A stretch of DNA of 64,000 nt from Stenotrophomonas rhizophila. Its GTDB lineage: Bacteria > Pseudomonadota > Gammaproteobacteria > Xanthomonadales > Xanthomonadaceae. The translations under genes and the position numbers were made by a program. Below the pieces are notes generated by a model that did no database searches, was not told where the DNA came from, and saw only the letters and a list, made by a program, of their open reading frames with translations. The DNA is taken from NCBI RefSeq assembly GCF_000661955.1, contig NZ_CP007597.1:3732318-3796317 (forward strand). Direction: 5' to 3'. Below, in pieces: positions 1 to 2,814 of the stretch; within the stretch, counting starts at the first letter, position 1; each line of letters begins with the position of its first letter.

Positions 1-2
1 TG

Positions 3-89
3 CGGCTGCCGTGGTGCCCCGCCTGCCAGGGCGGCGAAGCCGCAATGGCGCCGCCGCTGTCCTTGCCCTGGGACCTCCAGCGCCCGTGA
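3..89 (+). CDS. C-terminal end of a clipped upstream gene, possibly the E1-like or leader-binding TOMM protein
   Basis: An open frame runs from the window edge to a TGA at 87-89 and encodes 28 residues containing Trp-Cys-Pro-Ala-Cys and ending in Asp-Leu-Gln-Arg-Pro. The gene downstream starts 51 bases later on the same strand and the following genes encode RiPP-modifying enzymes. A Cys-x-x-Cys pair near the end would suit the zinc-binding part of E1-like cyclodehydratase partner proteins of TOMM (thiazole/oxazole-modified microcin) clusters, but too little is visible to assign a family. It could also be chance open frame. Function is inferred from position only. Confidence 0.45.
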   Translation, partial: RLPWCPACQGGEAAMAPPLSLPWDLQRP

Positions 90-140: not shown

Positions 141-719
141 ATGTATCGCCTGCCGACCCAGTTCGATGCCAGTGCCTCGCGCCAGGACCTTGCCGCCGCA
201 GGCGGGGGCTCAACCTCGACCACCTGCAGTTCCTGCATCGTGACCCTGCTCGGCACCTCGGTGCTGTCGGCGGTGGTGCTTGGCGGGTTGGAACCGATCG
301 CGCCCGCCGCCGCCGGCAGCGAAACACGCGCCACGGTCGATACCGTCGCAACGGACACCGACCTCCACACCCCGCCACCGCCCTCGCTGCAGCAACCGGC
401 CATCGCCCCGGATCCGGACCTGGCCGCACCCGCCACATCGGCCGCGCCGGTGGTCGGGATGAGCCGCACGGGTCGGATACTGCTGGGGCTGTTCGCCTTG
501 CCGCTGGCAGCTGTCGGTGGCGGCATTTTCATGGGCACCGCCAACCCGATCTTCGGCCTGTTCGTCGCCGTCGGGCTGTACGTCGGCCTGTACGCCTTCG
601 TCTACGAGCGCTCGGGGCGGTCGTTCGGGCGCGGCATCGGCATCGGCATCGGCCTGCTGCTGGGCCTGTTCGCCGTCGGCGCACTCGAGATGATGCTCTG
701 GCTGAGCGTGATGAAATGA
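141..719 (+). CDS. Small membrane protein with a Ser/Thr/Cys-rich segment, in a TOMM-type RiPP operon
   Basis: The 192-residue product is not assigned to a family. A GGAG motif at 130-133 lies seven bases before the ATG, which supports this start. Residues 1-23 form a polar N-terminus ending in three glycines. Residues 24-32 are nine consecutive Ser, Thr or Cys residues (STSTTCSSC). A hydrophobic segment follows at about 33-52, then a Pro/Ala-rich linker at about 60-105, then three further hydrophobic helices at about 112-131, 137-155 and 166-190. The stop overlaps the start of the YcaO gene as ATGA. Ser/Thr/Cys runs after glycines are the sort of core that YcaO enzymes heterocyclise, so this may be an unusual membrane-anchored substrate. 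An accessory or immunity membrane protein is the alternative. Confidence 0.8.
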   Translation: MYRLPTQFDASASRQDLAAAGGGSTSTTCSSCIVTLLGTSVLSAVVLGGLEPIAPAAAGSETRATVDTVATDTDLHTPPPPSLQQPAIAPDPDLAAPATSAAPVVGMSRTGRILLGLFALPLAAVGGGIFMGTANPIFGLFVAVGLYVGLYAFVYERSGRSFGRGIGIGIGLLLGLFAVGALEMMLWLSVMK

Positions 720-2053
720 GCCGCTCCGCCGTCGATGCGGCGGAGCCCGGAACGCCCACGCTGTCTTCGCACCTGCTGCATGGCGCGGCGCGTCCGCGCT
801 GCGGTCTGGTGCGCCCGGCGCAGGCCATCGACGCCAGCGCCTGCGATTGGACCGGCCCGCTGTTCGAGGGACGGCGCGTACACAATGCGGCCACCCCGGC
901 CGACCCGGCCAATCCCTGGCAGGGCGTGTCAGGCGCGGTCGCACTGGATGCCGATGCAGCCGCCGACGGCGCGGTCGCCGAGGCACTGGAGCGGCTGGCA
1001 GCGGCGCAGGCGGGATTCGAGGTGCGCCGCCGGGATGCGCTGACGCCCGCGCAACGCCTGGACGAATCGGCCTTCGCCTTGTTCTCGACACGCCAACGTG
1101 CGACCCCCGGCTTCCCGTGGCCGATGCCCGAACACGACGGCGATCTGTTCGCCGCGGTGCATGCGCTGGATGACAACCGCGAGGCCTGGGTGCCGCAGGA
1201 ACTGGTGGGCCTCGGGCCGCGCAGTGGCGTGGCGCGCGTGCCGTCAACGTCCAGTGGGCTGGCGGCCTGGCGTGATGGTCGCGATGGCGCGTGGCTGGCG
1301 TTGCTGCGCGCGGCCCAGGAGCTGCTGGAGCGCGATGCGCTGGCAGTGACATGGCTCAATGGCGTGGCCGGCCGGCGCATCGCGCTGCCGGCGCACTGGC
1401 ACGCCCATGTGGACGCGCGCGGGGGGGAACTGCAGGCGTTCGACCTGACCCAGCACTGGAACCCGCACCCGGTGATCGCGGTCGCCGGCGGCATGCCGTT
1501 CGACGGCCGCCCCCGCTACGTCCTCGGCATCGCCTGCCGCGCCGATCCGGGCGAGGCACTGCACAAAGCGCTGCTGGAATGGCAGCAGGCACTGACCTTT
1601 GCCGCGCATCTGTGCGGGCGCGAAAGCGCCCGGCTGCCGCGCGATCCCGCCGCCCTGCGCAGCTTCGACGAACATGCCGCCTTCTACACCCTGCGCCCGG
1701 AGCTGTGGCCGCAGCTGCCGCTGCTGCGGGCGGCGGACGACAGCACCTTGAAGCTGCCCCCGCCGGGCGCAGCGGTCCGCCCCGCCGCGCCGCGCGCGAT
1801 TGCCGAGCTGGACATGCTGCGGCGCCGGCTCGGCAGTGCCGGCATTGCGCTGTACTACCGCGAGTTGACCACGACCGATGTGGCCGCGGCCGGACTGCGG
1901 GTGATGCGGGTGCTGTCGCCGCAGCTCAGTGGCCTGCATGCCGACGAGCGTGCACCGTTCCTCGGCGGCCGGTGCCAGGACGTGGCCTGGCGGTACCCCG
2001 GCGTGCCGCACAGCGGCGCGTTCCCCACTCCCTTTCCGCATCCGTTGGGCTGA
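716..2053 (+). CDS. YcaO-family cyclodehydratase (TOMM biosynthesis)
   Basis: The 445-residue protein resembles YcaO enzymes, which use ATP to turn Cys, Ser or Thr residues of a peptide into azoline rings. The acidic helices expected for ATP and magnesium binding appear as AVAEALERLA, AQELLERDAL and EALHKALLEWQQ. The protein ends in a proline-rich tail (PTPFPHPLG), as is common for the TOMM subgroup, where the C-terminus contributes to the active site. The gene overlaps the upstream membrane-protein gene by four bases and the downstream dehydrogenase gene by one base (TGATG), so the three genes are probably translationally coupled. The partner E1-like or leader-binding protein is not complete in this window. 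Family assignment is confident, but the substrate is unknown. Confidence 0.85.
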   Translation: MSRSAVDAAEPGTPTLSSHLLHGAARPRCGLVRPAQAIDASACDWTGPLFEGRRVHNAATPADPANPWQGVSGAVALDADAAADGAVAEALERLAAAQAGFEVRRRDALTPAQRLDESAFALFSTRQRATPGFPWPMPEHDGDLFAAVHALDDNREAWVPQELVGLGPRSGVARVPSTSSGLAAWRDGRDGAWLALLRAAQELLERDALAVTWLNGVAGRRIALPAHWHAHVDARGGELQAFDLTQHWNPHPVIAVAGGMPFDGRPRYVLGIACRADPGEALHKALLEWQQALTFAAHLCGRESARLPRDPAALRSFDEHAAFYTLRPELWPQLPLLRAADDSTLKLPPPGAAVRPAAPRAIAELDMLRRRLGSAGIALYYRELTTTDVAAAGLRVMRVLSPQLSGLHADERAPFLGGRCQDVAWRYPGVPHSGAFPTPFPHPLG

Positions 2054-2814
2054 TGCACGAGGTCCGCATGCCGTCACCGCCCTCCCCCTGGCACGATGCC
2101 CCGCTGTTCCATCTGTTCTGGCACAACGGCGAACTCAATCCAGCGCGCGCCGAGGTGATGCGCACGCGCATCGCCGAAGATGCCGCACGCCCCTGGTCGC
2201 CACCCCGCCCGATGCATGCGGCCGCCGGCATCGCCCTGCCGGACCCGGTGCATCCCGGTGACGCCCTGGCGCAGCGCCACAGTGGCCGCCGCTTCGGTGA
2301 CGCACGCTGGGGCGCGCAGGAGCTGGGCCGCGTGCTCGCCCCGCTGCGGGCCCGACCCGGCGACAGTGACACCCGGCGCCTGCCGTCCGGTGGGGCCAAG
2401 TATCCGATCCAGGCCTATGCCGCGCTGTACGGCGCCGACGATGCGATCGCCGCAGACCAGGGCATCTGCTGGTACGACCCGCTGCAGCATGCGCTGGTGC
2501 CGGTGGCGCCCTGCCCCGCGTGGCCAGCGCTGGCCAGGTTGCTTGGGGTGGACTGGTCGGAGCGGCCGGCGGCCGTGCTGTTCCTGATCGCCGAGCCGGC
2601 CGGCACGCTGACCAAGTACGGCGAGCGCGGTGGCCGCTTCGTGTTGATCGAGGCCGGGGTCTGGTTGGGCGCGCTCGGGCAGCAAGTGGCCGCGATGAAC
2701 GCCGCCGGCTGCGCGATCGGCTCCTTTGAGGATGCCGCGGTGCTGGCCCTGCTCGGGCTCGACCCACAGCGGCATCTGGCCGTGTTGGCCTATGCGTGTG
2801 GTCCGGCGCTTTGA
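2053..2814 (+). CDS. SagB-type nitroreductase-fold dehydrogenase (azoline oxidation)
   Basis: The 253-residue product has hallmarks of the SagB/McbC branch of the nitroreductase fold. Near residue 75 is the Arg-His-Ser-Gly-Arg-Arg-Phe motif, followed by PSGGAKYPIQAY, the FMN-contacting segment, and a C-terminal Ala/Gly-rich helix pair. In TOMM pathways these FMN enzymes oxidise azolines to aromatic thiazoles or oxazoles. The start at 2053 overlaps the YcaO stop. A second ATG at 2068 is possible. Its presence beside a YcaO gene makes a heterocycle-forming RiPP operon likely. No exporter or protease gene follows, and the next gene, dusB, is an unrelated housekeeping gene 172 bases away. Confidence 0.83.
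   Translation: MHEVRMPSPPSPWHDAPLFHLFWHNGELNPARAEVMRTRIAEDAARPWSPPRPMHAAAGIALPDPVHPGDALAQRHSGRRFGDARWGAQELGRVLAPLRARPGDSDTRRLPSGGAKYPIQAYAALYGADDAIAADQGICWYDPLQHALVPVAPCPAWPALARLLGVDWSERPAAVLFLIAEPAGTLTKYGERGGRFVLIEAGVWLGALGQQVAAMNAAGCAIGSFEDAAVLALLGLDPQRHLAVLAYACGPAL

Follow-up and report, generated by a model that had tools for sequence, protein, structure and literature searches.

The linear azol(in)e-containing peptides and thiazole/oxazole-modified microcins (LAPs/TOMMs) are ribosomally synthesized and post-translationally modified peptides (RiPPs) whose precursors are usually short and carry the core at the C terminus, a trait that is common rather than strictly defining. In the available part of PMC4603692, the cytolysin (streptolysin S) group is defined by Gly followed by at least ten heterocyclisable residues, and the cytolysin clusters identified there all include an ATP-binding cassette (ABC) transporter and a CaaX-like protease. 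Long structured leaders, modified with an azoline-forming YcaO, are described in the accessible part of PMC12455567. Furthermore, multi-helix TIGR04222 membrane proteins that carry a Cys-rich segment and are encoded beside MNIO enzymes have been proposed as substrates of those enzymes (PMC12452194, in its accessible part). Here, we describe a gene cassette at the start of a 64,000-nucleotide stretch of the Stenotrophomonas rhizophila genome (4.65 Mb contig NZ_CP007597.1, positions 3,732,318 to 3,796,317; hereafter the window). The cassette, its enzyme families, selection on a leader and core, and exchange of core residues only within Ser, Thr, and Cys can be read from the sequences. The cassette is very probably of the linear azol(in)e RiPP type, with a membrane protein as its precursor.

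The cassette consists of a divergent PAP2 gene followed by an E1-like gene, a gene for a 192-residue protein, a YcaO gene, and a SagB-type gene (Table 1). An earlier note, made from the window alone, described the YcaO and SagB-type genes as translationally coupled to the 192-residue protein, and the open reading frames (ORFs) confirm this arrangement, as an ATGA overlap joins the 192-residue gene to YcaO and a single base is shared by YcaO and SagB. The window opens inside the operon, and the remainder of the cassette was recovered from 8 kb fetched upstream (L002). That note also allowed that the 192-residue protein might be an accessory or immunity protein whose precursor lies upstream of the window. 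The fetched DNA speaks against this alternative, as the E1-like, predicted leader-binding gene directly precedes the 192-residue gene there and no short precursor is present in the 51 bp between them.

The 192-residue protein is, on the strength of its sequence and family, highly likely to be an azole-RiPP precursor made up of a leader (residues 1-20), a Gly hinge, a core (residues 24-32), a linker, and a three-helix membrane domain. The three Gly residues and nine Ser/Thr/Cys residues pointed out in the earlier note are read as GGG-STSTTCSSC (residues 21-32), and a degenerate DNA motif for GG and nine codons of the Ser/Thr/Cys type, which admits a few other codons too, has a single match in the 64 kb window and none in 100 shuffled versions. 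Two protein searches returned 115 distinct homologues of the protein, the closest named one (P0012, from Stenotrophomonas rhizophila) being 97% identical. Of the 115, 114 contain at least nine contiguous Ser/Thr/Cys residues after (G/A/S)GG; the lone exception (P0022) has an annotated start downstream of the Ser/Thr/Cys stretch. The core STSTTCSSC is found in 94 of these 114 homologues, and the other cores are STSTTCSCC (nine), STTTTCCCT (three), STSTSCCSC (two), and, once each, STSSCCCSC, STTTTCSSC, STTTSCCCC, STCTTCSCC, STSTTCTSC, and STSTTCSSS, such that all exchanges stay within Ser, Thr, and Cys. The run is nine residues long in nearly all homologues and ten in two. Most representatives have GGG before the core, while AGG is found in one group and SGG in the second precursor copy of genome G437. 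No Pfam or NCBIfam family matches the precursor above cut-off, and no nitrile-hydratase-like or Nif11 leader was found in it. The names 'DUF4190' and 'DMT-like permease', which sources attach to one homologue each, are unsupported by scans of the window's own protein.

Conservation and selection within the family are concentrated on the N-terminal part of the precursor. On average, the commonest residue accounts for a share of 0.96 for GGG, 0.95 for the core, and 0.69 for the leader, compared with 0.58 for residues 33-50, 0.24 for the linker, and 0.47 for the C-terminal domain. These values were obtained from 56 representatives (<80% identity) drawn from 111 aligned rows, from which P0022, having no core, and the short sequences P0113-P0115 were left out. 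The predicted core is the best-conserved part of the family, as the earlier note had anticipated. Among nine Stenotrophomonas genes, the ratio of non-synonymous to synonymous differences (pN/pS) is 0.00 in residues 21-32 and 0.03 in leader residues 2-20, rising to 0.33 in the C-terminal domain, 0.41 in residues 33-50, and 0.70 in the linker; the 71 pairwise differences counted in residues 21-32 are all synonymous (0 non-synonymous), although pairwise differences are not independent events. In seven genes from outside the genus, themselves found by their core, the lowest ratio again falls in residues 21-32 (0.15 vs 0.48-0.85 elsewhere). Selection within Stenotrophomonas is unaffected by the bias of a core-derived search. 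The Ser/Thr/Cys stretch is therefore more than a chance run, since it is under strong purifying selection. Additionally, G437 (L029/L031) contains two tandem precursor genes with near-identical leaders and diverged C-terminal membrane domains, whose cores (STTTTCCCT and CTTTTCSCT) have changed only within Ser, Thr, and Cys.

The association of this precursor with its enzymes was probed in 91 genomes of the genus with a YcaO family search that is independent of the core. This search gave matches in 16 genomes, of which 11 carry an orthologous YcaO, and every one of these 11 has the 192-residue gene with the core intact. No homologue lacking the run, which the earlier note had named as a refutation, was seen beside an orthologous YcaO. 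The YcaO loci of the other five genomes have no match to the cassette YcaO, E1-like, or SagB proteins, apart from a weak match in one genome (L025), and are not counted as counter-examples for this reason. The 192-residue gene is itself present in 11 of the 91 genomes, all with the other four genes and identical nine core residues; at three loci (L018, L019, L021) the fetched stretch ends inside SagB and PAP2, and only the start of SagB is seen. All five genes were also found in the same order in 15 of 15 named loci, eight from Stenotrophomonas and seven from Candidimonas, two Bordetella genomospecies, Aromatoleum, Variovorax, Verticiella, and one unclassified Pseudomonadota. Because these loci were retrieved with a pattern derived from the core, they contain it by construction and cannot show whether run-less homologues exist; the YcaO search in the genus is the better test. 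Several of the 11 carrier genomes coincide with assemblies that supplied named loci, and the two counts are not additive.

The three putative modifying proteins each resemble a LAP/TOMM enzyme. The E1-like protein matches TIGR03882 ('TOMM precursor leader peptide-binding protein') with an E-value of 1e-7, and a profile of 15 E1-like orthologues finds TruD (2.8e-5) and LynD (0.001) in the PDB. An AlphaFold2 model of the orthologue from locus L003 (predicted local distance difference test score, pLDDT, 80.9; 15 rows) retrieves TruD, LynD, and MccB, along with McbBCD complex chains presumed to be McbB, in Foldseek with E-values of 1e-11 to 1e-7, and the cysteines of its CxxC...CxxC motif are invariant in 15 rows. 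These results, in part from a model, identify an E1-like C protein with a predicted leader-binding domain. The YcaO (D) protein of LAP/TOMM systems is likewise present, as PF02624 is matched at 4.5e-29 (102.3 bits vs a cut-off of 25.7) and the C terminus carries PxPxPHPLG in 10 of 10 aligned sequences. The PxPxP tail has a role in azoline-forming YcaO enzymes. The SagB-type protein scores 34.5 against the Pfam nitroreductase family (cut-off 23.5), has CyaGox (4.6e-8) and McbC (6.4e-7) as PDB relatives, and retains KYGERGGR in the nine full sequences aligned.

The membrane anatomy of the precursor was examined by structure prediction and hydropathy. The AlphaFold2 model (pLDDT 77.8) contains a helix at residues 25-48 and a confident three-helix part (residues 109-133, 136-157, and 162-191) with pLDDT of at least 90 over most of its length; no PDB fold matched the model at E-values up to 0.001 (best 6.6). 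The three C-terminal helices are called by hydropathy in 17 of 19 proteins chosen by us, and G165, E183, and W187 are invariant in a 52-row alignment. The segment after the core behaves differently, as it passes the hydropathy threshold in 15 of the 19 proteins and fails in four, and Arg, Lys, or His is found within 24 residues after the core in 13. The earlier note had placed the Ser/Thr/Cys run just before a first hydrophobic helix; the run stands, while the homologues weaken the reading of residues 33-50 as a membrane helix, which they are not clearly in this family. Positive charge predominates in the loop between the last two helices, and under the positive-inside rule this would leave the end of the linker facing the cytoplasm. 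Consequently, the core could be cytoplasmic, on the side expected for the enzymes, with residues 33-50 as a surface helix. Alternatively, the core could lie outside if residues 33-50 cross the membrane.

From these observations we infer the chemistry, topology, processing, and function of the product, together with the role of PAP2. First, the E1-like protein would bind the N-terminal leader (MYRLP.QF), and YcaO would use ATP to cyclodehydrate Cys, Ser, and Thr in residues 24-32. Next, SagB would oxidise some of the resulting azolines to azoles. The core would be presented right after the Gly hinge near the N terminus, while the three-helix domain, beyond the variable linker, would hold the substrate at the membrane. 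The product would be a polyazole head that remains attached to the membrane protein or is released from it by cleavage. Finally, PAP2, a predicted lipid phosphatase or phosphotransferase, may act as a partner or in self-protection.

Several points weigh against a LAP/TOMM-type assignment. The E1-like score for TIGR03882 (32.3 bits) is below the curated cut-off of 36.9, and the Foldseek TM-scores are approximately 0.3-0.4 by query length with a high full-length rmsd. The matches of YcaO to TIGR03604 (SagD family; 1e-37, 130 bits) and of SagB to TIGR03605 (2.6e-16, 59.6 bits) are also below their cut-offs (219.25 and 78.4, respectively), and a YcaO profile finds only McbD in the PDB at a marginal E-value of 0.0085, with a single sequence finding nothing. 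The 15 named loci were discovered through the core-derived pattern, and the protein searches are seeded with shared words of five residues, such that core-less homologues could be missed; one of these searches scored only the 7999 candidates with the most shared words. In addition, no protease or exporter, neither of which the earlier note could see in the operon, was found among the genes shared by the nine of the 15 named loci that were compared. In this all-against-all comparison (ORFs of at least 60 amino acids), no further gene family was common to at least three loci, and the other ORF groups found in at least three are, by position, overlapping shadow frames of cassette genes.

The fate of the modified core divides the azole-precursor reading into two branches. 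It is quite possible, although short of probable, that the mature product is a membrane-resident protein whose N-terminal region bears a rigid polyazole head. Such a protein would act at the membrane with its PAP2 partner, perhaps as a tethered ligand or by handling lipid phosphates, and would not be released as a toxin. The earlier note's proposal that the 192-residue protein is the substrate is well borne out by selection on the leader and core and by linkage to the cassette, whereas permanent anchoring of the finished product is a weaker claim than was written there. In the second branch, which is possible but does not reach an even chance, the modified N-terminal part would be cut after the leader and in the linker to release a short, hydrophobic polyazole resembling a cytolysin or another LAP, and the membrane domain would be only a carrier, immunity, or export part. 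Gly before a contiguous Ser/Thr/Cys run is also described for cytolysin precursors (PMC4603692, in the part available), the linker is almost unconstrained in its evolution and might be cleaved at any point, and the C-terminal domain is less conserved than the leader and core. However, cleavage is not easily matched with a shared gene set that holds neither protease nor exporter, nor with three C-terminal helices that are so widely predicted and that carry invariant residues.

The E1-like partner, the SagB dehydrogenase, and the PxPxP tail together form what we take to be the azole set, and the nine-locus comparison yielded no further gene in at least three loci, hence no TfuA-type gene. Both points argue against thioamide or amidine formation on the Ser/Thr/Cys stretch, an improbable alternative, although such roles are reported for YcaO proteins, as far as the accessible parts of PMC5589413 and PMC8442711 extend. 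A true precursor elsewhere in the genome, with the 192-residue protein as an accessory or immunity protein, is most unlikely: some TOMM families do encode the precursor far from the enzymes (heterocycloanthracin, in the available part of PMC4603692), but the leader and core features, the exchange restricted to Ser, Thr, and Cys, the zero non-synonymous change in nine genes, and the tandem duplication all argue for the 192-residue protein, and when the ORFs of the 15 loci were scanned for Gly plus at least seven Ser/Thr/Cys residues, the sole hit other than the precursor was an ORF of 46 codons at the far edge of L011. The gap between the E1-like and precursor genes is 10-54 bp across these 15 loci, and no Ser/Thr/Cys-rich frame was found in the longer precursor-YcaO gap (~270-320 bp) of L015.

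Table 1. Features of the cassette. Positions are those of the window unless prefixed by L002, the 8 kb fetched upstream.
Feature	Position	Strand	Basis
E1-like gene, 3' end only (whole gene L002:7175-8089, start codon uncertain)	1..89	+	TIGR03882, fold matches, invariant CxxC...CxxC
Predicted precursor gene, 192 aa: leader, Gly hinge, Ser/Thr/Cys core, post-core segment, linker, three-helix membrane domain	141..719	+	ORF, homologues, AlphaFold2
Leader, residues 1-20 (MYRLP.QF...AA)	141..200	+	pN/pS 0.03 (residues 2-20)
GGG, residues 21-23	201..209	+	family alignment
Predicted core, residues 24-32, nine Ser/Thr/Cys	210..236	+	exchange within Ser/Thr/Cys only; residues 21-32 with 0 non-synonymous differences
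Post-core hydrophobic or amphipathic segment, residues 33-50	237..290	+	hydropathy; model helix 25-48
Pro/Ala-rich variable linker, residues 51-108	291..464	+	pN/pS 0.70
Three-helix membrane domain, residues 109-192	465..716	+	model helices
YcaO cyclodehydratase (D protein)	716..2053	+	PF02624, TIGR03604
YcaO C-terminal PxPxP tail (FPTPFPHPLG)	2021..2050	+	PxPxPHPLG in 10/10 aligned
SagB-type flavin mononucleotide (FMN) dehydrogenase (B protein)	2053..2814	+	TIGR03605, nitroreductase family, PDB relatives
PAP2_3 gene, outside window	L002:6514-7155	-	Pfam PAP2_3

The divergent gene encodes a PAP2_3 membrane phosphatase (29.4 bits vs a cut-off of 27) in which the PSLH and QH...D residues, presumably the catalytic motifs of PAP2, are invariant in 10 rows. 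Only ~19 bp separate the called starts of the PAP2 and E1-like genes, so at least one of them is probably called too far upstream. An orthologue of the cassette PAP2 with 87-100% identity is present in exactly the 11 of 91 genomes that carry the cassette, while a paralogue of 35-40% identity is present in 53 of 91. The paralogue in the same genome (L033:1892-3226), which we take to be a PAP2/dual-specificity phosphatase, is a 444-residue ORF with 36% identity to the cassette PAP2; it sits elsewhere in the genome and has a further C-terminal part, a second domain that the cassette PAP2 lacks. The ORF of this paralogue overlaps the end of an upstream ORF that appears, by eye, hydrolase/methyltransferase-like.

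Beyond the genus, few of the sampled genomes carry the system. The precursor was matched in 3 of 398 genomes of a phylum sample, namely the own genome, a weak partial match in G435, and G437 as one clear new case; the G435 profile match (E 5e-4, model positions 75-170 only) is taken as membrane-helix similarity. A class sample around G437 gave 1 of 369 and a YcaO search in an order sample around it gave 1 of 399, in both cases G437 itself, which is the center of the order sample, was already known, and adds no independent case. The own genome has one YcaO match only. Among the other YcaO loci of the genus, L025 (genome G074) has weak E1-like and SagB-like matches and is possibly a different azole cluster, whereas L022, L023, L024, L026, L027, and L028, from four other genomes, have no match to the cassette YcaO. 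The G+C content of the cassette (window:1-2814 plus L002:6514-8000) is 71%, compared with 67% in the flanks. Genes named by eye as tRNA-dihydrouridine synthase and methyltransferase downstream, and as ribokinase-like upstream, were rejected as cassette parts, as they are present in the eight Stenotrophomonas loci and not in the other seven. PADLOC gave no anti-phage match for the five proteins, and a plasmid collection gave no YcaO match at an E-value of 1e-10.

No description of the cassette was found among the titles and abstract openings listed from the open-licence literature, and one may exist elsewhere. The main text of PMC4603692 does not contain the words 'Stenotrophomonas', 'Bordetella', or 'membrane', and none of the families described in its available part has a membrane-protein precursor; both genus names are also absent from the accessible parts of PMC10676384, PMC7136475, and PMC7470986. 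The cytolysin group resembles the cassette in having Gly followed by a contiguous heterocyclisable run and separate C, D, and B proteins. In contrast to that group, the run here is nine residues in nearly all homologues rather than at least ten, a membrane domain is fused to the precursor, and the five gene families shared by the nine loci, to which this comparison is limited, include neither ABC transporter nor CaaX-like protease. The azole precursors of the nitrile-hydratase-like leader peptide (NHLP)/proteusin type are long, like the cassette precursor, and are modified with an azoline-forming YcaO (PMC12455567, in part); however, their long part is the leader with the core after it, whereas here a leader of ~20 residues precedes the core and the long part follows. 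The nearest precedent found for a membrane substrate is the TIGR04222/MNIO proposal, in which, as far as the available part of PMC12452194 shows, a membrane protein is likewise proposed as the substrate of a RiPP-type enzyme, but with a different enzyme class, a C-terminal segment, and no azole set.

Stenotrophomonas rhizophila is a plant-associated bacterium that is not known as a pathogen, and the cassette is directly testable because it is compact, has the same order in the loci seen, and is present in this species. With the LAP/TOMM systems it shares an E1-like C protein, a YcaO D protein, a SagB-type B protein, and a precursor, linked to these enzymes, with an N-terminal leader, Gly, and a Ser/Thr/Cys core. 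It is unlike them in its 192-residue membrane precursor, whose core at residues 24-32 is followed by a C-terminal extension of 160 residues that includes the membrane domain, in its conserved divergent PAP2 gene, and in having neither exporter nor protease among the shared genes. The cassette is accordingly placed in the LAP/TOMM kind, and its novelty appears to be a membrane-protein precursor with a near-unchanging Ser/Thr/Cys stretch. If this stretch is modified, azole chemistry would be used on resident membrane proteins, or the precursor would bring its own membrane carrier. Azole RiPPs are known with short precursors or with long leaders that have the core behind them, whereas in this cassette the enzyme set is linked to a membrane protein whose predicted core lies near the front.

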